Below, piece by piece: positions 3,157-41,260 of a stretch of 42,723 nt of DNA. Location: positions 1 through 42,723 of IMG/VR virus record IMGVR_UViG_3300042154_002579. The stretch is one strand, 5' to 3'. Made by a program: the position numbers and the translations under genes. Position 1 is the stretch's first letter; every line of letters starts with the position of its first letter. The notes beneath the pieces are model-generated. The model was given only the letters and a program-made list of their open reading frames with translations. It did no database searches and was not told the DNA's origin. Source of the stretch: a virus.

Positions 3157-3364
3157 GTTTGCACTCTGTGAGTTTTTGTTCGATGAATTGAATGATCTCG
3201 TCGATTTCGACGGGGGTGAAGCGGGACGCTTTGCCTTTGGCGTGTAGGTTTAGTTTGCGAGTCCAGTGGGCGAGGAGTTGGCGTAGGATCGGTGCTATGT
3301 GTTGCGGGGGATAGTGAGCGCACAAGGCGCTCACTTCTTTCAGAATGTCATCGACGCGACTCAC
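3149..3364 (-). CDS. Unknown early protein, 71 aa
   Basis: Unrecognised helical protein starting MSRVDDILKEVSALC, with a basic central part (HWTRKLNLHAKGK) and a C-terminal helix IDEIIQFIEQKLTE. Its ATG overlaps the stop of the upstream gene (ATGA junction). The basic middle could contact nucleic acid, but nothing specific supports it. Confidence 0.7.
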   Translation of the reverse strand: MSRVDDILKEVSALCAHYPPQHIAPILRQLLAHWTRKLNLHAKGKASRFTPVEIDEIIQFIEQKLTECKHD

Positions 3365-3636
3365 GCGACTTCCTCGGGGGCAGAGAGCAACGGGAGGTTG
3401 AGGGTTTTGGCGACGGTCTTGGAGTTCATCAGGGTGTCGAATTTTTCGAAAGCGAGGCGCAAGGCTTCGTCCCCGTCAGCAGCGTTGCAGCGCACTTTGA
3501 TTTCCGTCCCGTCGTTGTCAACGGTGATGCTGCATCCCCAGCGCTCAGGCGTCTCGGTGTAGCGATAGTTGTTGCGAAGCAGCGCGACTTCAGCGTTGAA
3601 AGCGTTAAGTTTGGCGAAGATCTGGGAAAGGGTCAT
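3361..3636 (-). CDS. Unknown early protein, 91 aa
   Basis: Start chosen at the ATG at 3636 (MTLSQIFAKL) because AGGAG lies about seven bases upstream; the open frame extends to 3678 without a better site. It shows an N-terminal helix, then a two-strand segment (CSITVDNDGTEIKVRC) and a helical end. Similar in size and style to the product of 4368-4580, which also has a beta segment followed by a D-E-A-F/L-R-L helix, so the two may be distant relatives. Confidence 0.72.
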   Translation of the reverse strand: MTLSQIFAKLNAFNAEVALLRNNYRYTETPERWGCSITVDNDGTEIKVRCNAADGDEALRLAFEKFDTLMNSKTVAKTLNLPLLSAPEEVA

Positions 3637-3701
3637 TTTGATTGCTCCTGCGTGATAGGTGTTAGGTGTTAGGCACATTGTGGATTGAGTAGCAGATGGG
3701 G

Positions 3702-3718
3702 TTAGCCCGTAGGGCTAA
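3702..3718 (-). terminator. Hairpin overlapping the stop of the 3715 gene
   Basis: TTAGCCC at 3702-3708 pairs with GGGCTAA at 3712-3718 across a three-base loop. The stop codon of the 3715-4086 gene (minus-strand TAG, plus 3715-3717) lies inside the stem. No T-run follows on the minus strand, so this may slow transcription, process mRNA or protect the 3' end rather than be a full terminator. Confidence 0.45.
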
Positions 3719-4086
3719 AATTCAAAGTTCGGGTCGTTGAACAGTTCCTCCATGTCTTTCAGTTTTTCGGTGAGAGGTTTGCGTGCAAAGCGTTCCTTCT
3801 CGGCGCGTTCGCGGGCGCGTTCGGCTTTTGCTTCGGCGTTGGGGTCACGAGCCCAGGAATTGACGACATGCTGGATCGGCATGGTCGGGCCTGCTATGCG
3901 GTGCGGCTGGGTTGCCCCGGCCATCTCGCGTTCACGCAGGACTCGCATGAGCGCTGCCATGCCTCCGGGTGTGGCGGGGAAGGAAAGCTCTTGCGTGTAG
4001 CCTTTTGTGGCGCGGAGTTGGAGGTAAATGAAATCGCCTTCTGAGTAGATGGCGGTGGCAGCGTGGAACGGGGCGGTTCGTGACAT
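3715..4086 (-). CDS. Unknown early protein, 123 aa, charged C-terminus
   Basis: Start at the ATG at 4086 (MSRTAPFHAATAIY), preceded by CGGAG. Residues 1-60 are beta-rich (IYSEGDFIYLQLRATK); residues 80-123 form a highly charged helix rich in Ala, Arg and Glu that may be a coiled coil, ending NDPNFEF. First gene after a 97-base gap with a minus-strand TATAAT, so it may head a sub-operon. No family recognised. Confidence 0.72.
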   Translation of the reverse strand: MSRTAPFHAATAIYSEGDFIYLQLRATKGYTQELSFPATPGGMAALMRVLREREMAGATQPHRIAGPTMPIQHVVNSWARDPNAEAKAERARERAEKERFARKPLTEKLKDMEELFNDPNFEF

Positions 4087-4367: not shown

Positions 4368-4580
4368 TCAATAATCCTTTTCTTCGAGCGGACGGAGGTG
4401 GAGTTCCACTTTGCCGGGAGTGAGGCAAATGATCTGCGCCCAGAAGTTTTGGGGTTTGTATGCGCGGATCAAGTCGAACGCCTCGTCCATGTCCGCGCAG
4501 TTGAATGTCAGGGTTTGGCGCTTGCCCTCTGGGTTTAGAGGTGCGGAGATGCAGTCATCGGTCACGGTAATAATCCTCAT
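4368..4580 (-). CDS. Unknown early protein, 70 aa
   Basis: Start taken at the ATG at 4580 (MRIITVTDD); an in-frame ATG at 4598 is possible. It overlaps the end of the upstream gene by 26 bases. The protein has a beta hairpin (QTLTFNCADMDEAFDLIRAY) and a C-terminal strand pair (GKVELHLRPL). Unrecognised; it resembles the 3361-3636 product in secondary-structure layout. Confidence 0.68.
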   Translation of the reverse strand: MRIITVTDDCISAPLNPEGKRQTLTFNCADMDEAFDLIRAYKPQNFWAQIICLTPGKVELHLRPLEEKDY

Positions 4581-4878
4581 CTGGATAGGAGTCCTCATCT
4601 TCGCCCCACTCCCCGATGTAATCAAGGATCGCGTCGTCAACTGCGCGATGAGTTGCAAGGAGTTCGAGCAGCGCGCCAGTTGCTTTGAAGAGCGGGGCGT
4701 CCGGTTTGTCTGGGTCGTCGAGTTTGAGATGGATCGAGTTGACTTCCCATTCCGGGTCGTCTCCCTCGTAGCAATCCTCCGGCGGGCCGTAGAGTTGGGG
4801 TTTGGTGCCGGGATGGGTTAAAGTCCAGTCGATGTCGAGGATGAAATCGTGGCCCATGAAATAAAGTCCGGTCTGCAT
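4555..4878 (-). CDS. Acidic unknown protein, 107 aa
   Basis: Start at the ATG at 4878 (MQTGLYFMGHDF). The protein is strongly acidic, with DDPEWEV in the middle and a tail GEWGEDEDSYPDEDYYRDR dense in Asp, Glu and Tyr. Such acidic small early phage proteins often mimic DNA or sequester basic host proteins, but nothing here identifies a target. The open frame upstream to 4986 overlaps the next gene and lacks a good ribosome site. Confidence 0.7.
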   Translation of the reverse strand: MQTGLYFMGHDFILDIDWTLTHPGTKPQLYGPPEDCYEGDDPEWEVNSIHLKLDDPDKPDAPLFKATGALLELLATHRAVDDAILDYIGEWGEDEDSYPDEDYYRDR

Positions 4879-4882
4879 GATT

Positions 4883-5116
4883 TTAGCCTTTCGAAGGAGC
4901 AAACATGATGCTGCTGGAGTATCCATCGCAGAGGGGGAACGATCGCTCTTTGATGCCGGAAGCGAGCAGTCCTTTGCGTAGGTCATCGAAAACGCCGCGA
5001 GGTGAGAGGGATGGATCGCCTCCGATGTTGTTGCATACGAAGGCCAGCACTTCAGCTTCGTATTCGGAGATAGTTATGGTGACTTCGATGGCTGTAGCTT
5101 GAGAAGTGATTTTCAT
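4883..5116 (-). CDS. Unknown early protein, 77 aa
   Basis: Begins MKITSQATAIEVTITISEYEAEVLAFVCNNI. The segment TISEYEAEVLAFVCNNIGG, followed by a Leu-rich helix, is a pattern seen in many small phage early proteins of unknown function. The ATG at 5116 is 60 bases past the previous stop. No motif beyond this. Confidence 0.7.
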   Translation of the reverse strand: MKITSQATAIEVTITISEYEAEVLAFVCNNIGGDPSLSPRGVFDDLRKGLLASGIKERSFPLCDGYSSSIMFAPSKG

Positions 5117-5168
5117 GTTGGGACTCCGTGTTGAGGGGTAGAACCGCAGGTGCGTGGAGGTGAAAGGG

Positions 5169-5186
5169 GTTGCCCGCTAGGGCAAC
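5169..5186 (-). terminator. Hairpin with the stop codon in its loop
   Basis: GTTGCCC at 5169-5175 pairs with GGGCAAC at 5180-5186. The four-base loop contains the TAG stop (plus CTA 5177-5179) of the 5177-5593 gene. On the minus strand the stem is followed by CCCTTTC, so termination would be weak. Confidence 0.45.
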
Positions 5187-5593
5187 GGCCAGACGTAGGG
5201 AAGGTCGGGGCTTTCGATCCATCCAAACTGGCGATAGTGTTCGGGTAATTTGCGAAGCAAATTGGAGCGGTGGGATGCGTGGAAGTCGGCGTTGCCGAGC
5301 CATTTCGGGGGTGAAACGGCTTCGCCGTTTGGCATGTGTGCGGCGATTTTGGCAGCGCATGTGTCGTTGAACCCGCGTTTTTTCCATTCATCACATATCG
5401 CCAGACCATACAAAACGAGGTGGGCGATGTGGCCGCGCCACATTTTGACTGCGGGATGGTTTTGCCAACCATAAGAGGGATTGGTGAGCGCGTTGAGGAT
5501 TTGCAGCGTTTCGACGCGCTGCTTTCCAAGTCTGCGATTGTCGAGAGATCGGGCGGACATGGGGAAGTCGCTGTAAGGTAAGAAGGTTTGCAT
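5177..5593 (-). CDS. MSMEG_6728-like putative pyrimidine-dimer DNA glycosylase, 138 aa
   Basis: The MSMEG_6728 family is annotated as related to T4 endonuclease V, which excises UV-damaged pyrimidine dimers. Family marks visible in order: MQTFLPYSDF at the N-terminus, RSLDNRRLGKQRVETLQILNAL (18-39), GWQNHPAVKMWRGH (about 46-59), then the C-terminal part HASHRSNLLRKLPEHY and PYVWPLP. The full-length pattern from the PY start to the PYVWP end is intact. Start at the ATG at 5593 with GGAGG nine bases upstream. Likely repairs phage DNA or processes host DNA; biochemical activity of the family is poorly tested. Confidence 0.78.
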   Translation of the reverse strand: MQTFLPYSDFPMSARSLDNRRLGKQRVETLQILNALTNPSYGWQNHPAVKMWRGHIAHLVLYGLAICDEWKKRGFNDTCAAKIAAHMPNGEAVSPPKWLGNADFHASHRSNLLRKLPEHYRQFGWIESPDLPYVWPLP

Positions 5594-5595
5594 GG

Positions 5596-5790
5596 TCAGC
5601 CTCCTGAATAAGAGTTGCGTAAAAGCCATTGGCGTTCGGCCTCGTTGTCGAGACATTCTTGCAGATCGGAGATGAATTGTTCGAGATCCAGCCTCTCGTC
5701 TTTTGTGATTTTGAAATTGGGGTTTTGCAGGTTGGCGACGAGAACGCGAATGGCTGTTTGCGCGCCGTCTGGGTAAAGTTCTGCGATCAT
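5596..5790 (-). CDS. Unknown early protein, 64 aa
   Basis: Starts at the ATG at 5790, which overlaps the upstream TGA (ATGA junction). Helical and acidic: ERLDLEQFISDLQECLDNEAERQWLL suggests a short coiled coil or a helix-loop-helix. Its end carries the GGAGG used by the glycosylase gene two bases downstream. No family recognised. Confidence 0.7.
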   Translation of the reverse strand: MIAELYPDGAQTAIRVLVANLQNPNFKITKDERLDLEQFISDLQECLDNEAERQWLLRNSYSGG

Positions 5791-5960
5791 TCTGAGTCCT
5801 CCATGATGTAGTCGATGAATGTGGAGCGGCGGAAAGTGCTGGATGCAGCCGCACAAACGTCTGCGATGTTGTTGACGAGCAGTTTGAACGCGAGAGGGTT
5901 CATATGCTGGCGGGATTCACGGAGCGCCTTTGCGAGTGCTATGAAATGTTTCTTGCTCAT
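5787..5960 (-). CDS. Small phage protein of the MSKK-F-ALA type, 57 aa
   Basis: Reads MSKKHFIALAKALRES at the N-terminus and ends STFRRSTFIDYIMEDSE. Small proteins with this opening and a Phe-Arg-x-x-x-F end are common in the early regions of many phages and have no assigned role. The stop overlaps the next gene's ATG (ATGA). Confidence 0.7.
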   Translation of the reverse strand: MSKKHFIALAKALRESRQHMNPLAFKLLVNNIADVCAAASSTFRRSTFIDYIMEDSE

Positions 5961-5963
5961 GGT

Positions 5964-6251
5964 TCACCAAGTGTAGTTCTGGGTTTTGAGAATGTCTCTA
6001 AGTTCCTGCTTGATGCGCCTTGCGTGTTCTCCGCGCCATGTGGCAGCGTTTGCCAGGAAGTAGGCCACAACGCTGACGCCAGAATCCAGGCCATACATTT
6101 CTCCGATCTGGTTGAGCGAGCGCATGGCGTATATGTAAGGGAAAGCCGCAAAATGCGGCTTGGGCCAGTTTTGGCGTATGTCCGCAGCGATGATGTAGAG
6201 GGGGCGGTGCCTTTCGGCTGGAGCGCCTTCGGCGGGAGATGTCTGAGTCAT
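5964..6251 (-). CDS. Unknown early protein, 95 aa
   Basis: Start at the ATG at 6251 (MTQTSPAEGAP), one base after the upstream stop; the longer open frame to 6479 runs through the next gene. The protein is helical after residue 18, with a basic C-terminal helix (RRIKQELRDILKTQNYTW). Unrecognised. Confidence 0.7.
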   Translation of the reverse strand: MTQTSPAEGAPAERHRPLYIIAADIRQNWPKPHFAAFPYIYAMRSLNQIGEMYGLDSGVSVVAYFLANAATWRGEHARRIKQELRDILKTQNYTW

Positions 6252-6252
6252 G

Positions 6253-6543
6253 TCATTCGTCCGAGGTGATGGGCAGGGCGGACTGCATGGTGGCGATCCA
6301 GATGGTGAGGTCGTCGATTGCCATTGCAGCCTGGGTTCGTTTGTATTTGGTGTTTGTGATCTCGCCCGCAGCGCGCAGCATGTTGGTGATGCCCATGCCG
6401 CGAGTTGGGATGACCTGCCCGTTGGTTTTGATGTAGAGCTGCAGGGCGGAGCGCAGTGAGCGGGCGCGGAAGTATGCAACAGCGTCGGGGCCGGAATAGC
6501 TGACTGCGCCAGATTTGCCGATGTGAATTGATGACTCTGACAT
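6253..6543 (-). CDS. Unknown early protein, 96 aa
   Basis: Start at the ATG at 6543 (MSESSIHIGK). Residues 10-45 (VSYSGPDAVAYFRARSLRSALQLYIK) followed by a basic middle region and a helix-turn-helix-like stretch (GMGITNMLRAAGEITNTKY) resemble small phage DNA-associated proteins. No confident domain call; a DNA-binding role is only a suggestion. Confidence 0.7.
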   Translation of the reverse strand: MSESSIHIGKSGAVSYSGPDAVAYFRARSLRSALQLYIKTNGQVIPTRGMGITNMLRAAGEITNTKYKRTQAAMAIDDLTIWIATMQSALPITSDE

Positions 6544-6803: not shown

Positions 6804-7040
6804 TTAGAGCGTCGGGGTGATGAAAATGCAGATGGGGTTGTTGACTAAATCCAGACGTAAAAGATCGCCCCAGTCTGTTGTGCGGTGACGGCAGGGAGAA
6901 AGGCCCAGAGCCTTTTTGGCTCGGCGGATTAGGGTTTGGCTTGTGGCGTCAGCGGGCGCGTCGATTTCGACTCGATGCACCCAGCAGTAGTTGGCTTCGC
7001 CTCCGAAAGTATCGGTCATTTCGACTGAGTAACGGCACAT
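6804..7040 (-). CDS. Small phage protein, FGGEANY type, 78 aa
   Basis: Start at the ATG at 7040 with GGAG upstream. MCRYSVEMTDTFGGEANYCWVHRVEID is a pattern I have seen in many unrelated phages' early regions (small proteins with FGGEANY), always of unknown function. The C-terminal half has a basic helix RRAKKALGLSPCRHRTTDWGD. Cys and His residues are scattered and do not form a clear zinc motif. Confidence 0.73.
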   Translation of the reverse strand: MCRYSVEMTDTFGGEANYCWVHRVEIDAPADATSQTLIRRAKKALGLSPCRHRTTDWGDLLRLDLVNNPICIFITPTL

Positions 7041-7077
7041 GGTAGGGCTCCAGGTTTGGGGGTGCAGAGGTGCAGAA

Positions 7078-7308
7078 TTAGAGTGTGGGGAAAGCGCCGG
7101 AAAGCTGCGTCCAGAAGCAGGACAGCATAACGTCGTGTGAATAGCCTGCGTCCTCGAACAGGCGGATCTCCTTGTCGAGATCGAGTGCATCGTCACCCTG
7201 GATGAAAAGGTCGGAGCGAGAGATGCGATTGTAAAGAGTGTAAGCTGATCCATTGCCGTGGGAGTAGAGGTGGAAATGGTCTGTGGTGATGGAGAGGCTG
7301 GTTTGCAT
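7078..7308 (-). CDS. Unknown early protein, 76 aa
   Basis: Begins MQTSLSITTDHFHLYSHGNGSAYTLYN and continues with an acidic segment (GDDALDLDKEIRLFED). Mixed alpha/beta, probably a small soluble protein. The ATG at 7308 is preceded by AAGGAG. No family recognised. Confidence 0.68.
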   Translation of the reverse strand: MQTSLSITTDHFHLYSHGNGSAYTLYNRISRSDLFIQGDDALDLDKEIRLFEDAGYSHDVMLSCFWTQLSGAFPTL

Positions 7309-7328
7309 GGGAAGGCTCCTTGCAGATG

Positions 7329-7646
7329 TTAGAAAAGGTCTGAGAGGTCGTCAGCGGTGATGACTGCGACAGCTTTGCCACGCTTGGTGGTTACGCGCTG
7401 TGCAGCGTCTTGGACGGCTGGATGATCAGCGCCCCAGATGTTGCGGAGGTTCGCGAGGTAACGCTTGTGCGCCTCGGCAAAGCCAGAAAAGTGGTCGTTG
7501 TAAGAGGCAGGCCAGAGGTTTTCGGGGAAGTCTTGGAAGAGCTTGCGGGTAGCCGCAGGCTGCGCGTCGTAATAGGCAAAGAGCTGGGCTTTGTCTTTGC
7601 GGATTGTCTGCTGGTAGCGGTTGCGGGAGTTGTTTGTGGCTGGCAT
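7329..7646 (-). CDS. Unknown early protein, 105 aa
   Basis: Helical, with a basic N-terminus (NNSRNRYQQTIRKDK) and a C-terminal ADDLSDLF that echoes the acidic tails of the 13-372 and 9130-9684 products. First gene after the 105-base control region 7647-7751, so likely the first gene of the main leftward operon when that region's promoter is used. Function unknown. Confidence 0.7.
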   Translation of the reverse strand: MPATNNSRNRYQQTIRKDKAQLFAYYDAQPAATRKLFQDFPENLWPASYNDHFSGFAEAHKRYLANLRNIWGADHPAVQDAAQRVTTKRGKAVAVITADDLSDLF

Positions 7647-7751
7647 TGCAAGAGTCCTGACTGCGCTGGTGCAGTGTGCGGGGTTGCGTCTGGATGACGA
7701 GTGAAAAACAAATCACCCGTCATCCTTTTGTTGCATATAATGGGCCTAAGG
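7647..7751 (-). promoter_or_regulatory. Control region of the leftward operon: box plus TATATG
   Basis: On the minus strand AGGCCCATTATATGC runs from about 7748 to 7734, joining a TGGGCCTAAGG box (plus 7741-7751) directly to a TATATG -10. The -35 is poor (TTTTGG at 17 bases). Further down lies the hairpin at 7692-7725. I read this as a regulated promoter for the genes from 7646 leftwards. Confidence 0.5.
7692..7729 (+). terminator. Hairpin with T-run, plus-strand orientation
   Basis: GGATGACG at 7692-7699 pairs with CGTCATCC at 7718-7725, with GTG/CAC pairs further in and a loop of about ten bases, followed by TTTT at 7726-7729. As a terminator it acts on plus-strand transcripts. For the leftward transcript it would be a leader hairpin without a T-run. 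Confidence 0.55.
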
Positions 7752-7904
7752 TCAATCCAAAAAACGTCGAGCGGTTGAAGGATCGGCGGCGATTAAAAGC
7801 TCCAAAAAGTCAGCGTATCGGTGCTGGTTTGCTTCTCGCATCAGTTTAATAGCGAGTCTCAAAACGGCGCGGAGATGGATGATTGTATCGTCTTTGGCTG
7901 ACAT
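7752..7904 (-). CDS. Small unknown protein, 50 aa
   Basis: ATG at 7904-7902 shares its A with the TAA of the upstream gene, indicating coupled translation. The protein reads MSAKDDTIIHLRAVLRLAIK and ends AADPSTARRFLD: two short amphipathic helices, basic overall. No relatives recognised. Its stop lies one base from the TGGGCCTAAGG box. Confidence 0.6.
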   Translation of the reverse strand: MSAKDDTIIHLRAVLRLAIKLMREANQHRYADFLELLIAADPSTARRFLD

Positions 7905-8587
7905 TAGAAAACTCCTTCGTCGTCAGTTGGAAGGCCGAGGTGAATTTTGTGGTCGAGTGAAAGGGGCTCGTCGTCGTTGTAGAGGTCTGGAAACGGCGCG
8001 GGTTGGCCGAGAGCAGTCCAGGCTTGGTTGATTGCGTGTTTTTGGTCAGCGAGTTCAATGTTCATGTGTTGGGAAAGCTGGCGATCGGAGAGGGTTTTGT
8101 TGTAGCGAGCTGCTGCGCCGTAGTGGGTTGGGGTTGCAGGTATTGGGTCTTTGGGGACTGCGAGAACAGTGGATTTGTCGAAGTATTGTGAAAAGCCTTC
8201 TGGCGTTTTTGTGCCGATTGCGGCAGGCGCGGTTTTGCCGGGGGTGAGATATTCGGCTGGAGGAGCTTCGCCGGGAAGGAGTTTGTAGGGTGTTGGAGTG
8301 GCGTGGCGTTTTGCGCGATTGCGGAGCATTTGACGAGTATTGCGCTGCGCGTTGAGTTTGAAATGAGCGTTTTCGTTCGCGAGAATTTCGAGCGCCTGCG
8401 GATTGATGGTGATGAGGTTGGTGATGGCCTGGATGGTTTGGATGGTGGAGAGGAGTTCATCGGGAGTTGGTTGAGGTGGGAGGGCGCGGATTGCGTCGGA
8501 GATGTTGCGGTGGGTGGAGAGAAGTAGGTCTTTGAAATCGCTGGATATTTTGAGGAGTGCGAGCATTCGGGTTTGTGATATTGCCAT
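7904..8587 (-). CDS. Unknown early protein, 227 aa
   Basis: Unrecognised. Residues 1-80 are helical and Leu/Ile-rich (LLKISSDFKDLLLSTHRNIS and TIQTIQAITNLITI). Residues 90-105 are basic (RQMLRNRAKRH); the second half is Pro-rich and looks loosely folded, ending GLPTDDEGVF. First gene leftwards of the origin-like region 8588-9129, and therefore probably among the earliest made. A DNA-associated role is possible from the basic patch, not shown. Confidence 0.72.
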   Translation of the reverse strand: MAISQTRMLALLKISSDFKDLLLSTHRNISDAIRALPPQPTPDELLSTIQTIQAITNLITINPQALEILANENAHFKLNAQRNTRQMLRNRAKRHATPTPYKLLPGEAPPAEYLTPGKTAPAAIGTKTPEGFSQYFDKSTVLAVPKDPIPATPTHYGAAARYNKTLSDRQLSQHMNIELADQKHAINQAWTALGQPAPFPDLYNDDEPLSLDHKIHLGLPTDDEGVF

Positions 8588-8648
8588 GGAAAGGGCTCCT
8601 TTGGCGATGTGTTAGGGTGAACAATGCACCCGTTGTATCACGCGGATG

Positions 8649-8667
8649 AGTCCGTGCATATAAATCA
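8649..8667 (+). repeat. 19-bp inverted repeat, left arm
   Basis: AGTCCGTGCATATAAATCA. Its exact reverse complement is at 8902-8920. TTGT-T-TC also recurs about 17 bases before each copy, so the conserved unit may be a promoter (TTGTAT, 18 bases, CATATA) or a protein-binding site. Confidence 0.8.
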
Positions 8668-8783
8668 AGTGGGTGTTGCTCGCGTTTTTGGGTTATGGGT
8701 GGGTTTAAGGTTGTGGGTGGGATAGCTGGGGGCCTAGTTGACATTCGATTTTTAAAAAAAAATATATAATTAAGGAGTTAAAA

Positions 8784-8829
8784 GGGCTCTAACCTTTTAA
8801 AATATATATTTAGAGAAAAGGTTAGGCCC
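8784..8829. repeat. AT-rich inverted repeat
   Basis: CTAACCTTTT (8788-8797 region) and AAAAGGTTAG are a perfect 10-base inverted pair separated by 17 A/T-rich bases. GGGC/GCCC extends the arms outward past a one-base mismatch. It could form a cruciform or serve as a paired binding site; half of each arm is the TGGGYYTAAC box. Confidence 0.7.
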
Positions 8830-8839
8830 ACAATATACT
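8811..8839 (+). promoter_or_regulatory. Box-containing promoter candidate, rightward
   Basis: TAGAGA (8811-8816), a 17-base spacer holding GGTTAGGCCCA, and TATACT (8834-8839). AGGCCCACAATATACT matches the late promoter's AGACCCATGATATACT at 13 of 16 positions. A mirror-image box with TATAG (minus strand, 8860 down to about 8842) faces it. No rightward gene follows within 1.2 kb, so it may make a non-coding or primer RNA, or act mainly as an operator. Confidence 0.45.
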
Positions 8840-8901
8840 GGCTATAGAGTGGGTTTAAGGTTAAGGCCACCATTGCCGTCCCAGAGGGCGTAAAGGGTAG
8901 G

Positions 8902-8920
8902 TGATTTATATGCACGGACT
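8902..8920 (-). repeat. 19-bp inverted repeat, right arm
   Basis: Exact reverse complement of 8649-8667. Read leftwards it has TTGTTT upstream and CATATAAAT within it, so it could be the promoter for the 8587 gene. Confidence 0.8.
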
Positions 8921-8966
8921 GATTGCCGGGAAACAATGCCGGTAACATCGCCGCTGCCGCTCTGCC

Positions 8967-9040
8967 ACCATTTCCCTACCATTTCTCCTGCCACCATTTA
9001 CCATTTCTCCAACCATTTGCTGACCATTTTCCTACCATTT
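8967..9040 (+). repeat. Seven direct ACCATTT repeats (iteron-like)
   Basis: Copies begin at 8967, 8978, 8993, 9000, 9012, 9023 and 9034. Four of the six start-to-start distances are 11 or 12 bases, about one helical turn, so a bound protein would sit mostly on one face. ACCATTG near 8868 may be a degenerate eighth copy. Confidence 0.8.
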
Positions 9041-9091
9041 GAAATCAGCGAAAAAATTTAGCATCTGGTCGTGATGGCAAAACGCAGAGCC

Positions 9092-9124
9092 AAAAAAGCC
9101 CCGCCAGAATGACCCGGCGGGGCT
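9092..9124 (-). terminator. Rho-independent terminator of the 9130-9684 gene
   Basis: On the minus strand AGCCCCGCC (plus 9124-9116) pairs perfectly with GGCGGGGCT (9105-9097) over a 10-base loop, followed by TTTTTT (9097-9092). Strong and directly after the stop codon. It separates this gene from the leftward operon beyond the origin-like region. Confidence 0.92.
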
Positions 9125-9129
9125 GTTGA

Positions 9130-9684
9130 TTAGAATATATCTGCGAAATCGTCGGACTGTTTCGCTGCTTTGCGCTTGCGGTCGGAAAATTCCTTTTCGA
9201 CTGCGGCAGCGAATTTTGCGTTTTGCAAGGCATTGGCAAGGAAAGTCTCAAACGCCTCCTTTTCCTCCGGCTTGCTGCGCTTTGGCAGCGCTTTGCCTTT
9301 TGCTTTGGCGACATTCTCCAAAAGCTCGATAGCAATAGCGCGGCGCATTTTATCATCGTCTGACATGCGCGGGGACGAGGCGCGACTCTTGCGTGCGACT
9401 CCCGAAACAATGCTTTCAAACATTTCTCGTTGAATCGCCGCGCAAATTTTCGCGGCTGTTTCCTCGTCCCGACCGCCGCCAGTTATGGCGAGGCGGTTAC
9501 ATTCGGCGGCAATATCGTCATCTGACCAAGGGTTAGCCCCATTGCCCATAATACCTGCCTTCACCCCCGCAATCGAGTTCTTGATTGCCGTCGAAAATCC
9601 CAACTGCATAAGATGTGCGATGGAATTTTCAGGAAGGTTAGCGCTGTTGACGTTAAAACCGGCGAACGAAAGATGATACGACAT
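9130..9684 (-). CDS. Unknown early protein next to the origin-like region, 184 aa
   Basis: Unrecognised. MSYHLSFAGFNVNSANLPENSIAHLMQLGFSTAIKNSIAG forms the N-terminal part; the middle is helical, and residues 130-184 are highly charged and Lys/Arg/Glu-rich (PKRSKPEEKEAF, SDRKRKAAK), ending DDFADIF. The basic helical C-terminus fits a DNA-bound protein. It has its own strong terminator and its own palindromic control region, so it is a monocistronic unit beside the ACCATTT repeats. That position suits an initiator or a regulator, but no domain confirms either. Confidence 0.75.
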   Translation of the reverse strand: MSYHLSFAGFNVNSANLPENSIAHLMQLGFSTAIKNSIAGVKAGIMGNGANPWSDDDIAAECNRLAITGGGRDEETAAKICAAIQREMFESIVSGVARKSRASSPRMSDDDKMRRAIAIELLENVAKAKGKALPKRSKPEEKEAFETFLANALQNAKFAAAVEKEFSDRKRKAAKQSDDFADIF

Positions 9685-9703
9685 AACATTGACTCCATGT
9701 TAT

Positions 9704-9749
9704 GCCCTATCGGGTTTTACGATTTCAAACAGCAAGAACCCGGTAGGGC
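9704..9749. repeat. Long inverted repeat upstream of the 9684 gene
   Basis: GCCCTATCGGGTT (9704-9716) and AACCCGGTAGGGC (9737-9749) are inverted copies with one mismatch, 20 bases apart. In the 9684 transcript's leader this would fold into a 13-pair hairpin about 20 bases before the ATG. Confidence 0.65.
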
Positions 9750-9753
9750 TCAA

Positions 9754-9774
9754 ATCGAATCGAATTGATTCGAT
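9754..9774. promoter_or_regulatory. 21-bp palindrome, operator-like
   Basis: ATCGAATC (9754-9761), centre GAATT, GATTCGAT (9767-9774). It abuts a TGGGTTTAAGG box at 9774-9784. Typical size and symmetry of a dimeric repressor site. Confidence 0.6.
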
Positions 9775-9791
9775 GGGTTTAAGGTAACAGA

Positions 9792-9818
9792 AAAAAACTG
9801 CATTACAAGCGGTTTTTT
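9792..9818. terminator. Bidirectional terminator
   Basis: A six-A run then CTGC pairs with GCGG then a six-T run across a seven-base loop (9802-9808), giving a ten-pair stem with T-runs on either strand. It isolates the leftward and rightward control regions from each other. Confidence 0.75.
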
Positions 9819-9993
9819 CGTTTTTTCAAAAAAAAAGTTAGGCCCATTTGTCAACTCGTCACACATGCGCGAAAGGCGATGGGGTGGGGGATATATAGCG
9901 GCGACTCGTTTCGTGCATGGGCGGGCGTTTTTGGGGCGTTTAAGGGCTATGAAAGAAAATCGCGCCAATGTGTTTTTTCTTGCTTTGGGGTAA

Positions 9994-10022
9994 TTGACAC
10001 GGTGGGCCTAACATGAAATAAA
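9994..10022 (+). promoter_or_regulatory. Promoter candidate before the 10070 gene
   Basis: TTGACA (9994-9999), 17 bases, then AATAAA (10017-10022), with the TGGGCCTAAC box lying in the spacer. The -35 is perfect and the -10 weak. A protein on the box would block or assist polymerase here. Confidence 0.4.
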
Positions 10023-10069
10023 CGGGCATACCCGAAACGGGTAGGGCTTTTTGACATTGTGAGGAACCA

Positions 10070-10216
10070 ATGACCGTTCATGAACTGGTGACAGCGCTTT
10101 TGGACATGAACCCGGACGCGCAGGTATATGTGAAAGGGCCAGCTTTTGAGGAAGAAGGGCTGACCGACCCCAAACTGAAAATTATAGGAACTGGGGATTA
10201 TATTTGGATTGAATAA
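10070..10216 (+). CDS. Small unknown protein, 48 aa
   Basis: First rightward gene. Reads MTVHELVTALLDMNPDAQVYV and ends TGDYIWIE. The opening T-V-x-E-L-x-x-x-L-x-x-x-x-P-D-A-x-V is a pattern common to small phage proteins of unknown role. GAGG lies six bases before the ATG. Followed at once by a perfect stem-loop. Confidence 0.65.
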   Translation: MTVHELVTALLDMNPDAQVYVKGPAFEEEGLTDPKLKIIGTGDYIWIE

Positions 10217-10218
10217 AC

Positions 10219-10238
10219 GCTGGGGCAAATGCCCCAGC
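10219..10238 (+). terminator. Perfect stem-loop after the 10070 gene
   Basis: GCTGGGGC, loop AAAT, GCCCCAGC: eight pairs with no mismatch, two bases after the stop codon. No T-run follows, so it may be a weak terminator or a 3'-end stabiliser. Confidence 0.6.
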
Positions 10239-10387
10239 TATCCGACCGCAAAAGCTGCCAAGCGCCAGATGCCGGGGGACTGGCCCAGCGGGGGATTGGA
10301 GTAATGCTTTGCCGAACCCACATTTGTCTGAGCGAAAAATAAAGTGATGGGTCTATTTCACGACTTTCCCCCTTGCCCTTGCAGTAA

Positions 10388-10416
10388 TTGCCAAGCAGTC
10401 AGACCCATGATATACT
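10388..10416 (+). promoter_or_regulatory. Sigma70-type late promoter
   Basis: TTGCCA (10388-10393), exactly 17 bases, TATACT (10411-10416), with TGA just before the -10 as in extended -10 promoters. It lies 35 bases before the small terminase gene and nothing interrupts the long rightward gene set that follows. AGACCCA in the spacer matches the phage box seen at 8824; an inverted ATGGGTCT sits upstream near 10347. Confidence 0.75.
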
Positions 10417-10450
10417 CAGTCCAAGATGGTGTTAACCCCTTGGAGCCAGC

Positions 10451-11314
10451 ATGTATATCGCCCCGCCCGGAAAAGGCCGCAGACCCGCCCCGATCACCTA
10501 CGGGGTGCCACGGCACCTCTCGGAAGCCGACATCGCCTCGATGTGGGATCACATGGGGAGCGGGCAAAAGGGGGTGCCGCGGATCAAAACGCTCCGCTAC
10601 AACCACCATCTGCTGGCGAAAGCGGTGGCCTCGGGCAAAAGCCTGCTGGAATGTTCAAACCTCTGCGGCCTCACCGTGGCCCGCATCTCTGACCTCAAAA
10701 ACGACCCAGCCTTCCAAGAACTGGTAAGTTTCTATGCAGAGGAACTGAACGAGGTTTACGTGGACGTGCATCAACGCATGGCCGCGCTTGGCACCAGCGT
10801 GCTCGAAGAACTTCAGGAGCGTTTCGAGGCGGAGCCAGAAAAGTTCACGAAGCGCGAACTTATGGACCTGTTCACGACCATGGCCGATCGCAGCATCGCC
10901 ACGGCCAAGGGCGGACCCAACCCTCAACAGGTGATCGCAACTGGCAACGGTGCGGGACTCGCACTCCAGATAAACTTTGTTTCTCCCGCATCAGGCGAGC
11001 CCGAAACCCTCGACGCAACCCTCATCCCCGCACCTCAAACCCAGGCGCCCGCGGCTCTGCCCACATTCGCACAAGACGAGCGCGAAGTGGTCAGGTCCCC
11101 TCTTGCCGAGTCTTTCGGCTTTCCCCCCGGTATCGACATTGACGGGGAGCCTATCGTCCCCCACACTCCCGTTCCAGTCCCGACCTCTGCCGAAATCCAA
11201 CAGGCGCGATTTGACGCGACGGGCGAGGCGGTCGCAAAACGGGAAGCGGACGCAGCGGCGCGGGACGCACTTCGCGCAGAATACATGGCGAAAGGGCGAA
11301 ACCATCATGGCTAA
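10451..11314 (+). CDS. Terminase small subunit (TerS), 287 aa
   Basis: TerS recognises the packaging site on phage DNA and hands it to the large subunit. Residues 45-80 (LLAKAVASGKSLLECSNLCGLTVARISDLKNDPAF) read as a helix-turn-helix of the type at TerS N-termini, followed by a helical oligomerisation part to about 155 (ELNEVYVDVHQRMAALGTSV). The remaining 130 residues are Pro/Ala-rich with a final charged helix, longer than usual. Being first in the late region fits. The large subunit is 10 kb away, which is unusual. Call is by motif and position, moderate confidence. Confidence 0.72.
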   Translation: MYIAPPGKGRRPAPITYGVPRHLSEADIASMWDHMGSGQKGVPRIKTLRYNHHLLAKAVASGKSLLECSNLCGLTVARISDLKNDPAFQELVSFYAEELNEVYVDVHQRMAALGTSVLEELQERFEAEPEKFTKRELMDLFTTMADRSIATAKGGPNPQQVIATGNGAGLALQINFVSPASGEPETLDATLIPAPQTQAPAALPTFAQDEREVVRSPLAESFGFPPGIDIDGEPIVPHTPVPVPTSAEIQQARFDATGEAVAKREADAAARDALRAEYMAKGRNHHG

Positions 11315-21228: not shown

Positions 21229-21396
21229 TTGGCGAAGGGCAAAATGACGATGGCTGAGTGGGAACGCTCGCCGATGGACAAGAAAAAGGACGCAGCGCTC
21301 AAGAAAAAGGGCGTGAAAGAAGGCTCTGCCAAGGACAAGGCGATGGACAAAAAGGGCCTTGCTGCTTACAATGCCAAGGTCGGCAAGAAGAAATAA
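21229..21396 (+). CDS. Small Lys-rich protein, MTMAEWE type, 55 aa
   Basis: TTG start at 21229 with GGAGG eight bases upstream; an ATG at 21244 would give 50 residues (MTMAEWERSPMDKKKD). The M-T-M-x-x-W-E-x-S/T opening followed by D-K-K repeats is a common short phage pattern. The end LAAYNAKVGKKK echoes RASYNAKAK in the 11307 product. Strongly basic; unknown role. Confidence 0.62.
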   Translation: MAKGKMTMAEWERSPMDKKKDAALKKKGVKEGSAKDKAMDKKGLAAYNAKVGKKK

Positions 21397-21419
21397 GCCC
21401 ACTACGGATTGCGTATAAG

Positions 21420-22784
21420 ATGGACTTAACCGCACAAAATGCAAAAGTGATTGAGTGGCCGGAAAAGCTGCAATGCTTGTTCTGGCCGCAGGTCAATGGT
21501 TTGCCTGTGCGTTATCGAGTTTTATATGGCGGTCGTGGTGGCGCGAAGTCATGGGGAATTGCGAGGGCACTGGTGCTGCTTGCGGCAAAAAAGACCCTTC
21601 GCATTCTCTGTGCTCGTGAATTACAAAACTCAATTCGTGACTCGGTGCACAGAGTTTTAAGTGACCAGATTGATCTTTTAGGACTGCAAGGTTTTTATCA
21701 GATCGAGCAGGCAAGAATTTATTGCCCGTCTACAGGCTCGGAATTTTCTTTCGAGGGCATTCGAAACAATGTCACGAAGATTAAGTCATATGAAGGTGTG
21801 GACATTTGCTGGGTGGAAGAAGCGAATAAAGTCACGAAGACCTCGTGGGACGTGCTTATTCCGACGATCCGTAAGGAAGGTTCTGAAATCTGGGCTTCGT
21901 TTAACCCGGAGCTTGAGAGCGATGATACGTATGTGAGATTTGTGCTGCAGCCGCCGAAGAACGCGATTGTGCAGAAGATTTCATGGCGCGATAATCCGTG
22001 GTTTCCGCAGGTTTTGAAGCAGGAAATGCTCGATCTTAAAGTCCGCGACCGCGATGCGTATTTGCATGTGTGGGAAGGGGAGTGCCGAAAAAGTCTGGAA
22101 GGAGCGGTTTATGCGGACGAACTTCGTGACTGCGCTGAAGAAGGTCGTATCACACACGTTCCTCACCATTCTAGCTCTGCTGTTAATTTGTATTTCGATC
22201 TTGGCCGGTCAGACAGCACGGCAATTATCTTCGAGCAATACGTCGGAATGCAACGACGAGTCGTGGACTTTTACGAGAATCGACTCAAAGGGCTAGATCA
22301 TTACATTCATGTGCTGCGCACACGCAGGGGCTCCACGGGCGAACTTTATGACTATGGTATCTGCTGGTTGCCGCATGACGCTCGGGCCAAGACATTAGGT
22401 TCGAAGAAGTCGATAGAAGAGCAGATGCGTGATGCGGGTTTTCAGGTTCGGATCGTGCCGAGGTTGAGCAAGTTCGACGGGATTATTGCGGCGAGAAGCA
22501 TTTTCCCGACATGCTGGTTTGATGCCGCAAAATGTGAGAAGGGGCTTTTACACGCTCTTCGGCATTATCATTACGAAGAAAACCCCGTGACTGAGACGTT
22601 CAGCGCGGAACCTGTGCATGATTGGTCGTCTCATGCTGCTGACGCTTTTCGATACATGGCTATTGCCTCGAACGAAGGCGGATCGGATGGGCGCAGTCGT
22701 AAGGTGGCGGGGGCGCTAAAGCGTCAAAGCGGGTTAATGGGTAAGCTGCAGAATTTGGGCGAAAGCCTGGGATGGATGGGATAA
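21420..22784 (+). CDS. Terminase large subunit (TerL), 454 aa
   Basis: The packaging motor: ATPase plus nuclease that drives DNA into the prohead through the portal. Walker A GGRGGAKS (37-44), Walker B with acidic end VDICWVEEA (127-135), coupling-type SFNP region (160-163), then the RNase-H-like nuclease with Asp260 (YFDLGRSDST), His319-Asp320 (LPHDARAK) and Asp408 (HAADAF). Of the PBSX/Terminase_3 type. Start at the ATG at 21420; the open frame upstream is the shadow of the small basic gene. The portal gene begins at the very next base after the stop. Confidence 0.95.
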   Translation: MDLTAQNAKVIEWPEKLQCLFWPQVNGLPVRYRVLYGGRGGAKSWGIARALVLLAAKKTLRILCARELQNSIRDSVHRVLSDQIDLLGLQGFYQIEQARIYCPSTGSEFSFEGIRNNVTKIKSYEGVDICWVEEANKVTKTSWDVLIPTIRKEGSEIWASFNPELESDDTYVRFVLQPPKNAIVQKISWRDNPWFPQVLKQEMLDLKVRDRDAYLHVWEGECRKSLEGAVYADELRDCAEEGRITHVPHHSSSAVNLYFDLGRSDSTAIIFEQYVGMQRRVVDFYENRLKGLDHYIHVLRTRRGSTGELYDYGICWLPHDARAKTLGSKKSIEEQMRDAGFQVRIVPRLSKFDGIIAARSIFPTCWFDAAKCEKGLLHALRHYHYEENPVTETFSAEPVHDWSSHAADAFRYMAIASNEGGSDGRSRKVAGALKRQSGLMGKLQNLGESLGWMG

Positions 22785-24986
22785 ATGGCACGGCAAGCAG
22801 TTGACAGCGATAAATTCCAGAAAGTCCTGAAACGTGCGCAAGAGCGTTTTAAGCGTTGCGAAGGCTGGGAAAGCTACGCCCGCAGATTGTTCATGGATGA
22901 CATTCGTTTTGCGAATGCGGACGCTGACAATAAATATCAGTGGCCGACGCGCATGTGGAATGATCGGCAGCGCGATGAGCGTCCTGCCTTAACGATCAAC
23001 AAGACCCGTCAGCATAATCTGAACATCATTAACGATGCGAAGATGAATAAGCCGGGAATTAAGTATCGTGCTGCTGGTAATGGTGCGACAGCGGAAAGTG
23101 CTCGAATTTGGGACGGAATCGCGAGACACATTGAGTATCAGTCAAATGCCCCGGCGCACTACGATTACGCCACGCGCTTTCAGGTCGAAGCTGGCATCGG
23201 CTATCTGCGTGTCAACACGGACTACGTGGACGAGAACTCGTTCGATCAGGAAATTTATATCACGAGTATCGCAGACCCGCTGACGGTTTATATTGACCCG
23301 GACGCGAAGGCTCCGGCGAAAGAAGATGCGCGCTTTGCGTTTATCTTCGAAGACATGCCGAAAGATTTGTTCGACCAGAAATATCCGCAGTATAAGCAGT
23401 TTGCTGGGCAGGAAGTTCTTGTTGGCGAAAAAGGCTGGTATGACGAGGACCATGTTCGCGTTGCGGAATATTTTGAAGCGGAAGACGTGAACGATGAACT
23501 GCTGATGTTCGATGGTCCGAATGGTCAGCCAATGACGCTTATGGCCTCGGACTTGCGGAAGGTCGATCCGAAAAGTAAAATTTTTGATGATCCCCAGACC
23601 CGTAAACGTGACGTGACTCGCCGTGTGATCCATTACCACTTTATTGTTGGTAATCATGTGGTGCAGGAAGAAGAAAAGGTTTGGATTGGCAAGACCATTC
23701 CGATTATTCCAGTTGTTGGTGAGGAAACGATTATTGAGGGAAGGCTGGACCGTAAAGGTCACACCCGTGCGTTAAAAGACCCTCAGCGTATGTATAACTA
23801 TTGGGCGTCTGCTGCAGTAGAATACGGAGCCTTGCAGTCCAAAACTCCATGGATCGTTGGAGTGGAAAGCGTAGAAGGCTTTGAGGAATACTGGGCTACG
23901 GCGAATCGCCAAAATCATGCGTATCTGCCTTATAAGTCTGTTGGAGATGATGGTAAGCCTTTGCCTCCACCTTCTCGTATTGAACCACCTGTGCCGTCGC
24001 CGGTCGCGCTAAAAGGCATGGAAGTGGCGAATGTTGAAATGCAGATGGTTTCCGGGCAATACGAAAACCAACTGGGTATGCAGGGAAATGAACGCACGGG
24101 GAAAGCCATAGCCGAAAGGCAACGGCAGGGAGATCGTGCGACTTATCATTTTATCGACCATCTGGCGATTGCTATTCGGCAGGTTGGTAAGATCATTCTT
24201 GATCTCGTGCCGAAAGTTTACGACACCAACCGTGTTGTGATGATTTTGGCTGAGAACAATGAGAGTCTGGAAGTCAAGCTCGATCCGCAGTTGCAGCAAG
24301 CGCATATGCTGGAATTGAATGAGAATAATGAAGTGATCGGGCGGGTGCTGAACCCGGCGGTCGGAAGTTATGAAGTGCTGGCTGATGTGGGTCCGGGCTA
24401 TGCGACGAGACGTGAGGAAGCGTTTAATGCGCTGACTCTGATCCTGACGCAGAACCCTGCGCTGACGAGCGTTATTGGCGACATCATGTTCCGCGCTGGC
24501 GACTTCCCGATGGCGGAAGAAGCGGCAGAGCGTCTGAAGCGCATGGTTCCCCCGCAGGCGCTCGGTCAAGGCCCGTCGCAAAACGAGCAGATGCTTGCCG
24601 CACAACTTCAGCAGATGCAGCAGGCCCTTCAAGCCTCTATGGATGAGTTGGCGAAGGAAAAAGGCAAATCCCAGGCGAGACTCGAAAAAAGAGAGGTCGA
24701 GGTTTACGACGCGATCACTAAACGTCTGGACATTCTACTCAAGAATGTGGGAATGTCGCCGCAGCAGAACGCGCAAATTACCGATCAGGCTGTGCAGGAA
24801 AGCACCGAAGTCCCGATCAGCGATACCTACGAAGGGCACGAAGATCAGATGCCGGGACGGCAGATGGCGTTGCCGCTTGAGGATCACGAAATGCCAGAAG
24901 GCGCGTTTCGTGGAGAAGATGGACATGCTTATGCGCCACACCCGGAAATGCCCGGAATGATGGCCCGCGTTACGAAGGAGAGTTGA
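22785..24986 (+). CDS. Portal protein, P22 type, 733 aa
   Basis: Forms the ring at one head vertex through which DNA enters and leaves, and the base for the tail. Length is close to P22 gp1 (725). Marks: an early helical part with WPTRMWNDRQRDERPALTIN, the stem/wing segments with YITSIADPLTVYIDPDA, and GRLDRKGHTRALKDPQRMYNYWAS, a typical P22-portal block. The C-terminal 110 residues are a Gln-rich coiled coil (AAQLQQMQQALQASMDELAKEKG), as in the P22 barrel, then an acidic His/Met-rich end. Directly downstream of TerL. Confidence 0.93.
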   Translation: MARQAVDSDKFQKVLKRAQERFKRCEGWESYARRLFMDDIRFANADADNKYQWPTRMWNDRQRDERPALTINKTRQHNLNIINDAKMNKPGIKYRAAGNGATAESARIWDGIARHIEYQSNAPAHYDYATRFQVEAGIGYLRVNTDYVDENSFDQEIYITSIADPLTVYIDPDAKAPAKEDARFAFIFEDMPKDLFDQKYPQYKQFAGQEVLVGEKGWYDEDHVRVAEYFEAEDVNDELLMFDGPNGQPMTLMASDLRKVDPKSKIFDDPQTRKRDVTRRVIHYHFIVGNHVVQEEEKVWIGKTIPIIPVVGEETIIEGRLDRKGHTRALKDPQRMYNYWASAAVEYGALQSKTPWIVGVESVEGFEEYWATANRQNHAYLPYKSVGDDGKPLPPPSRIEPPVPSPVALKGMEVANVEMQMVSGQYENQLGMQGNERTGKAIAERQRQGDRATYHFIDHLAIAIRQVGKIILDLVPKVYDTNRVVMILAENNESLEVKLDPQLQQAHMLELNENNEVIGRVLNPAVGSYEVLADVGPGYATRREEAFNALTLILTQNPALTSVIGDIMFRAGDFPMAEEAAERLKRMVPPQALGQGPSQNEQMLAAQLQQMQQALQASMDELAKEKGKSQARLEKREVEVYDAITKRLDILLKNVGMSPQQNAQITDQAVQESTEVPISDTYEGHEDQMPGRQMALPLEDHEMPEGAFRGEDGHAYAPHPEMPGMMARVTKES

Positions 24987-27707: not shown

Positions 27708-28919
27708 ATGTCGAATACAATTCTTACAATTAACATGATTACCCGTGAGGCCGTTCGCCTCTGGGTCAATACCAACTCGTTCCTGCAGCATATCGACACG
27801 CAGTATGACGATCAGTTCGCCATTACCGGCGCGAAGATCGGCCAGAGCCTGCGTATCCGCCTGCCGAACGACTACACCGTTCGCACGGGTCCGGTCGCGC
27901 AGATTCAGGATACGGCGGAAACCAGCACCACGCTGACGCTCGCCACCCAGAAGGGCGTTGACGTGTCGTTCAACTCTGCCGAGCGCACGATGTCCTTGGA
28001 CGATTACTCCAAGCGCATTCTTGCTCCGGCGGTGAACAATCTGGTCGGCGCGGTTGCGGCGGACGTTATGTCTGGCGTTGAAGGCGGCGTTTCGAACCTT
28101 GTTGGCAACTTTGACGCTGCTGGCAATCTGCTGCGTCCGACGCTCGACACTTGGCTGCAGGCTAAGGCGCTGTTGTCCTTGCGTTCGGCCCCCACGGATA
28201 ACCGCAAGTTCATTCTTGATCCGGTTTCCATGGCCCGCACGGTGCAGAACCTGTCCGGTCTTCTCAATCCTGCGACGGAAATCTCCGAGCAGTATCGCAA
28301 GGGTGAAGTTTATAACGCGATTGGCTTCGACTGGTTCGAAGATCAGACCGTTATTAAGCACACGACTGGCACGTATGTCGCTGGTGTTTCTCCGACCGTC
28401 AACGGTGCGAACCAGACGGGCACGAGCATCAACATCACGATTGGCGCTTCGTCGTTCACCGTTGGCGACATCATCACCTTTGCTGGCGTGAACGCGGTCA
28501 ACCGCATCACCAAGGTTTCGACGGGTGAACTGCAGCAGTTCGTTGTGACGAGCTACGCTGGCGGTGTGCTGGGTATCTATCCGGCTATCGTTCCGCCGTC
28601 CGGTGGTAATCCGGTTCAGTATCAGACGGTTACTGCTTCGCCTGCGAACGGCGCGCAGATCAACAGCCTGACGCTGACGGGCACGGTTTATCGCAAGAAC
28701 CTTGCGTTTATTCCCGATGCCGTCACGATGGCGACCGCCGATCTGGAAATGCCGAAGAACATGCAGGAAGTCGCTCGTGAGCGTATGGACGGCGTGTCTC
28801 TCCGTATGGTCACTGGCTTCGACATTAAGTCGGATCAGTTCATCACCCGTCTGGACGTTCTTTACGGTTATCTCTGGGTTCGCCCGGAGTGGGCCGTGGT
28901 TGTCGCGGACATCATCTAA
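27708..28919 (+). CDS. Major capsid (coat) protein, P22 gp5 type, 403 aa
   Basis: Main shell subunit with the HK97 fold plus an inserted domain. P22-coat marks: an N-terminal MITREAVRLWVNTNSFLQHI, DDQFAITGAKIGQSLRIRLPNDYTVRTG (33-60), a helix EYSK-like SLDDYSKRILAPAVNNLV, and the C-terminal DMEMPKNM-like stretch (DLEMPKNMQEVARERMDGVSL) ending LDVLYGYLWVRPEWAVVV. The central segment (about 225-330) corresponds to the P22 inserted domain. Length is near P22 gp5 (430). Ends in a strong hairpin terminator, giving its own mRNA 3' end. Confidence 0.93.
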   Translation: MSNTILTINMITREAVRLWVNTNSFLQHIDTQYDDQFAITGAKIGQSLRIRLPNDYTVRTGPVAQIQDTAETSTTLTLATQKGVDVSFNSAERTMSLDDYSKRILAPAVNNLVGAVAADVMSGVEGGVSNLVGNFDAAGNLLRPTLDTWLQAKALLSLRSAPTDNRKFILDPVSMARTVQNLSGLLNPATEISEQYRKGEVYNAIGFDWFEDQTVIKHTTGTYVAGVSPTVNGANQTGTSINITIGASSFTVGDIITFAGVNAVNRITKVSTGELQQFVVTSYAGGVLGIYPAIVPPSGGNPVQYQTVTASPANGAQINSLTLTGTVYRKNLAFIPDAVTMATADLEMPKNMQEVARERMDGVSLRMVTGFDIKSDQFITRLDVLYGYLWVRPEWAVVVADII

Positions 28920-41218: not shown

Positions 41219-41237
41219 GCCCACTTGATAGCTAGTG

Positions 41238-41260
41238 CGGGGTGGGATTAACCTGCCCCG
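41238..41260. terminator. Hairpin at the convergent gene junction
   Basis: CGGGGTGGG (41238-41246) pairs with CCTGCCCCG (41252-41260), two wobble pairs, around a five-base loop. The stop codon of the leftward gene (plus TTA 41248-41250) lies in the loop. It separates converging transcripts; T-runs are missing. Confidence 0.55.

Follow-up and report, generated by a model that had tools for sequence, protein, structure and literature searches.

What is the function of a short sequence box that recurs in the control regions of an uncultured virus? Is it a promoter element, the binding site of a regulator, or something unrelated to transcription? The window considered here is a whole IMG/VR contig (G000, 42,723 bp) and belongs to a tailed phage with a recognizable head module. 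The leftward arm (minus strand, 9684 to the left end) contains a gene for a helicase and small early-type genes; TerS, terminase and structural genes lie in the rightward arm (10070-41218). The left-arm gene calls are imperfect, the window gene 7904-8587 having been missed by the caller and put in by hand. Related TerS proteins are encoded by 15 IMG/VR contigs, one of which, G001 (54,714 bp), is near-identical to the window and longer. In a distant relative, L052, gene 9130-9684 has a homologue (L052:4727-5284) whose orientation with respect to TerS is reversed. No near relative of the window was found in the phage collection searched, and a search of a bacterial genome collection, aimed at the host, returned no TerS relative.

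The recurring box is real. The initial annotation had listed an 11-mer, TGGGTTTAAGG, at 8700, 8850 and 9774, together with the variants TGGGCCTAAG at 7741 and TGGGCCTAAC at 8821 (minus), 9837 (minus) and 10003, and all of these are present; the half-site consensus is RTGGGYYTAASNT. Exact copies of TGGGYYTAAG number four in the window against 0.27 expected from shuffles, and those of TGGGYYTAAS number seven against none for the reversed control pattern, all seven being located between genes within 7741-10012, that is, in about 5% of the window. Exact copies also occur in 13 of the 15 related records (about 70 in total, against 4 matches to the control pattern), where they cluster in the same control regions as in the window. 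The 73 exact sites collected for a matrix reduce to 56 non-redundant ones, of which 53 are intergenic or in an unannotated locus, and the matrix built from 53 non-redundant sites reads R-TGGGYYTAAS-N-T. When trained on the relatives only, without the window, it gives nine top matches in the window (0.57 expected). All nine matches are intergenic, with non-coding DNA amounting to 12.5% of the window. Altogether there are about ten strong boxes here, in both orientations.

Boxes are also combined into a larger unit, a 39-bp dyad GTTARRCCCA-N19-TGGGYYTAAC with the palindromic centre ATACTSAGTAT. Inverted half-box pairs of the form CCCA-19-TGGG (score at least 17 of 20) are found in 53 copies; the 57 other spacings used as background average 1.5 copies and never exceed 6. 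Symmetrizing 31 non-redundant copies gives GTTARRCCCA-YYNKATACT-S-AGTATMNRR-TGGGYYTAAC as consensus, the full site being written GTTARRCCCA-YYNKATACTSAGTATMNRR-TGGGYYTAAC. The 19-bp centre is a palindrome in its own right (4.29 of 9 pairs, against 2.28 ± 0.23 in shuffles). The window has five dyads (Table 1), intergenic except for the right arm of the one at 21392; there are about six per genome, and the relatives have one more copy upstream of an early gene. Since the four-letter half-box scoring weighs degenerate arms alike, the weakest dyads, those at 3668, 10398 and 21392, rest on a position conserved in the relatives and not on score. Among the inverted pairs proposed earlier, 8821/8850 is significant, with exactly 19 bp between CCCA and TGGG, but 9774/9846 and 10347/10401 have no special spacing; 10401 in fact pairs with a degenerate box, TGGTGTTAAC, at 10427. 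The pairs 3668-3706, 21392-21430 and 41214-41252 had not been listed.

Table 1. Boxes, dyads, putative promoters and genes of the window, in order of position.
Feature	Position	Strand	Remarks
Degenerate dyad GTTAGGCACA-19-TGGGGTTAGC	3668-3706		Between leftward genes 3361-3636 and 3715-4086
Putative leftward promoter of gene 7329-7646	7727-7755	-	TTGACC-17-AACAAA; single box 7741-7750 inside spacer
Single box TGGGTTTAAG	8700-8709	+	Upstream of leftward gene 7904-8587
Compound dyad GTTAGGCCCA-19-TGGGTTTAAG	8821-8859		Abuts third half-box GTTAAGGCCA at 8860-8869
Putative leftward promoter of gene 9130-9684	9774-9808	-	TTGTAA 9803-9808, 16-bp spacer, TACCTT 9781-9786
Single box TGGGCCTAAC	9837-9846	-	Second site upstream of gene 9130-9684
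Putative rightward early promoter	9994-10022	+	TTGACA-17-AATAAA; spacer holds box 10003-10012
Degenerate dyad GTCAGACCCA-19-TGGTGTTAAC	10398-10436		Putative late promoter upstream of TerS (TTGCCA 10388-10393, TATACT 10411-10416)
TerS	10451-11314		Rightward arm
Degenerate dyad AATAAGCCCA-19-TGGACTTAAC	21392-21430		Right arm is the called TerL start codon and first codons
TerL	21420-22784		Head module
Portal	22785-24986		Head module
Major head protein	27708-28919		Head module
Compound dyad ATTAAGCCCA-19-TGGGATTAAC	41214-41252		Convergent-gene gap; arms contain both stop codons
Leftward-arm proteins with acidic-hydrophobic-F tail (examples)	Window 9130-9684, 7904-8587, 7329-7646, 3715-4086, 13-372; G001 3578-3874, 4485-4958

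Does the dyad act as DNA or as RNA? An RNA hairpin was considered and rejected: there is no covariation between the dyad arms, and, because the arms lack compensating changes, the dyad is taken to be a DNA site. An Rfam search of 7000-11000 gave nothing at gathering score. The bare 20-bp palindrome TGGGYYTAASSTTARRCCCA was also tried as a universal operator. It is enriched inside the clade (20 copies against a mean of 1.4, score at least 17); however, all four exact matches to it in the viral collection fall on contigs that have no clade genes, and it is therefore regarded as a secondary geometry.

The single boxes appear to sit inside conserved promoters of the sigma70 type, as assigned from sequence and conservation. 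In the relatives, the promoter of gene 7329-7646 is kept as TTGACS-TTAGRCCCA-N5-TGC-NAYAAA, with the box held in its 17-bp spacer. The rightward promoter, aligned by position across the relatives, reads TTGACA-N3-box, the box again lying within a 17-bp spacer and in the opposite orientation to that at gene 7329-7646, and its -10-like hexamers vary in quality (AATAAA, TACCTA, CATTAT). The TerS promoter in most relatives has the form TTGCNN or TTGTAA-17-TATACT with an eroded box in the spacer, and box 9774-9783 probably overlaps the weaker -10/+1 of gene 9130-9684. Adjoining this last box is an inverted repeat (9753-9773), the sequence of which differs among relatives with the pairing kept, which points to a hairpin where the 9130-9684 transcript would start. 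The rightward early promoter would drive a single small ORF (10070-10216), and different small ORFs occupy this place in relatives, as in a slot for variable cargo.

How, then, do the boxes relate to the -10 sequences to which they had been said to be joined? Such -10s are present at 8824, at 10401 and on the minus strand at 7748, and the one at the TerS promoter is conserved, but this does not hold for every site. The box with a nearby -10 (TTARRCCCA-N3-TATACT) could in principle form a promoter peculiar to the phage, recognized by a phage sigma factor or by an activator substituting for the -35; box-N3-TATACT is found at 8821 and 10401 and at similar sites in relatives, and the symmetric dyad centre looks like two divergent -10 elements. 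We consider this unlikely. Unlike the motifs of a phage sigma-factor promoter, the box stands at variable distances from, and in either orientation to, the -35 and -10; in the rightward promoter, which has a TTGACA, the box is turned the other way; and in relatives L016 and L021 this TTGACA is retained and the box is lost, so that the box does not belong to the core promoter. In addition, several dyads have no -10, and one of them lies between convergent genes, which counts against a promoter role because no promoter is needed there. Varying offset and orientation, together with loss of the box where the -35 is kept, indicate the behaviour of an operator. Thus the earlier idea of a phage-specific promoter/operator system survives in its second half, as operators of leftward and rightward genes that are conserved, intergenic, placed on promoters and essentially restricted to a clade, and not in its first, in which the box and the -10 form the promoter.

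Another possibility is that the dyads are not transcription operators but sites of replication, packaging or recombination, such as origin repeats, resolution sites or module-boundary sequences. The boxes at 8700-8860 flank a conserved AT-rich tract beside ACCATTT repeats, an origin-like arrangement, and dyads stand at module boundaries, the convergent gap included. Against this are the single boxes within promoters, the number of about six dyads per genome, and the finding of a tyrosine recombinase (PF00589) in none of five near-complete relatives by a search that was positive in 14 of 14 controls and that a very diverged fold could escape; we regard it as very unlikely. The origin-like region itself (8739-9041) consists of an AT-rich block, GTTGACATTCGATTTTTAAAAAAAAATAT, near-identical in several relatives, followed by about seven ACCATTT repeats; in the clade of L016, L018 and L021 the box and the AT-rich part lie instead between the 9130-9684 homologue and TerS. 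Upstream of TerS, about 85 nt of non-coding sequence (10272-10357; GGGGGACTGGCC...GTAATGCTTNGCC...GGTGATGGRYCTA) are strongly conserved in all 13 aligned sequences and may be a cos/pac site; this block includes the box-like TGGGTCTA at 10347.

If the sites are operators, is the protein that binds them encoded by the phage or by its host? The bare dyad geometry, scanned for in 2.9 million viral contigs, was found in 32 stretches, 22 of which share protein families of the clade; the other 10, without such families, are about the number expected by chance on a rough estimate. The dyad is essentially restricted to one phage clade. Of the stretches from a scan with TTGACANGATGGGYYTAAC, four were chance matches and not relatives. 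The near-confinement of the dyad argues against binding by a host regulator or by a host nucleoid or replication protein that the phage exploits or suffers, as one would expect such a factor, if common, to serve unrelated phages of the same host too. A host protein seems improbable to us for this reason, even with no clearly orthologous regulator gene found across both clades and with candidate helix-turn-helix proteins that differ between them.

These candidates are visible only in the relatives, the window contig stopping short of the region: about 12 kb of G001, the candidate regulator gene included, are missing from it. In each of four of the five near-complete relatives a single gene matches the GerE model, always in the same early-arm neighbourhood, with E of 5e-5 to 2e-4 per genome, which is below the Pfam curated cut-off. 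Helix-turn-helix genes of this kind lie at 5820-6233 (minus) in G001 and at 6107-6328 (minus) in G014, and G001 also encodes a basic protein at 5110-5652. The protein is 127-137 aa long in clade 1 and 71-73 aa in clade 2; the clade 2 form also weakly resembles DevR/DosR (E = 0.0025), and the scores that link it to regulators of the GerE/LuxR type, including DevR/DosR, lie below curated cut-offs. The proteins of the two clades are dissimilar (28-29% identity in alignment), and the box is the same in both. An AlphaFold model of the small GerE-type protein had no Foldseek match. The TGGGY half-box may be reminiscent of the G-rich dyad sites of GerE and DosR, and we know of no lux-box geometry that matches the paired spacing of 19. 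This GerE/LuxR-type helix-turn-helix gene of the relatives' early arm is thus a weak candidate for the regulator. Gene 9130-9684 was considered as well, and its model is all-helical, with no significant Foldseek or family match.

A further peculiarity of the early arm is an acidic-hydrophobic-F tail resembling the C-terminus of SSB (DDFADIF, DDLSDLF, DDELF, LLGDF, PNFEF), common to several unrelated early protein families and found in 40 of 289 early-arm proteins against 0 of 430 late-arm proteins. The proteins bearing it may share a binding partner.

How does this arrangement compare with known phage systems? The nearest in logic is SPBRE of Bacillus phage SPbeta, an element repeated in various intergenic regions of one phage that was found in silico and later shown to be bound by the master repressor MrpR (PMC10516654). 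SPBRE is a 15-bp motif and MrpR has a tyrosine-recombinase fold (PMC10516654); in contrast, that fold family was found in none of the five near-complete relatives here, and no lysogeny genes were seen in the phage. The stoperators of L5 and other cluster A phages are 13-bp asymmetric sites that lie at promoters and in narrow gaps between genes and are proposed to halt both initiation and elongation (PMC9283540, PMC6550527), and the present half-site, RTGGGYYTAASNT, is likewise short, asymmetric and located at promoters and in small intergenic gaps. However, the sites of L5 number more than 20, most of them point the same way with respect to transcription, and a monomer binds them (PMC9283540, PMC6550527), whereas the strong boxes here number about ten and take either orientation, and their inverted pairing at spacing 19 is strongly enriched. 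In the AimR operator a homodimer binds two hexameric inverted repeats separated by 25 bp (PMC8270828); widely spaced inverted half-sites are common to both, but the half-site and the spacing differ, and the present dyad has a conserved palindromic centre and many copies. By analogy, the box system may work like SPBRE/MrpR or the L5 stoperators; it is assigned to neither, because at least one defining feature of each was tested and does not hold here.

On balance, and with some reserve, we think it probable that the boxes serve as operators for a single sequence-specific DNA-binding regulator, itself most likely encoded by the phage, with a genome-wide regulon. That a single regulator serves the sites, as had been suggested, is supported as probable by their conservation, intergenic location, promoter positions and near-restriction to the clade, and is the most economical reading for a protein that would recognize an asymmetric half-site. 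This regulator probably represses or roadblocks. Bound to a single half-site within -35 to +1 of an early promoter, it would occlude RNA polymerase; a dimer or pair of dimers would bind the 39-bp dyad at unit boundaries, repressing initiation at the TerS promoter and the origin-like region and acting at the convergent gap and the TerL start as a roadblock or insulator that halts elongating polymerase. The suggested switching between leftward and rightward gene sets does not follow from the sites: early and late units both carry them, which alone does not account for temporal switching. A more specific proposal, tentative and in our view doubtful, is that the dyad has two uses for a phage regulator not described before, whose half-site would be bipartite (TGGGYYTAAS outside, ATACT inside): single half-sites would repress promoters, and the full dyad would serve as a two-way roadblock or insulator at unit boundaries, in a lineage apparently without tyrosine integrase.

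For an uncultured clade to which no isolate in the searched phage collection is close, a control map can thus be read from the sequence alone, showing where units start and end and the sites expected for one regulator. To our knowledge, few systems of dispersed phage operators are known. With a fixed 19-bp paired geometry and copies at the terminase genes and in the convergent gap, the choice between repression and roadblocking becomes testable.
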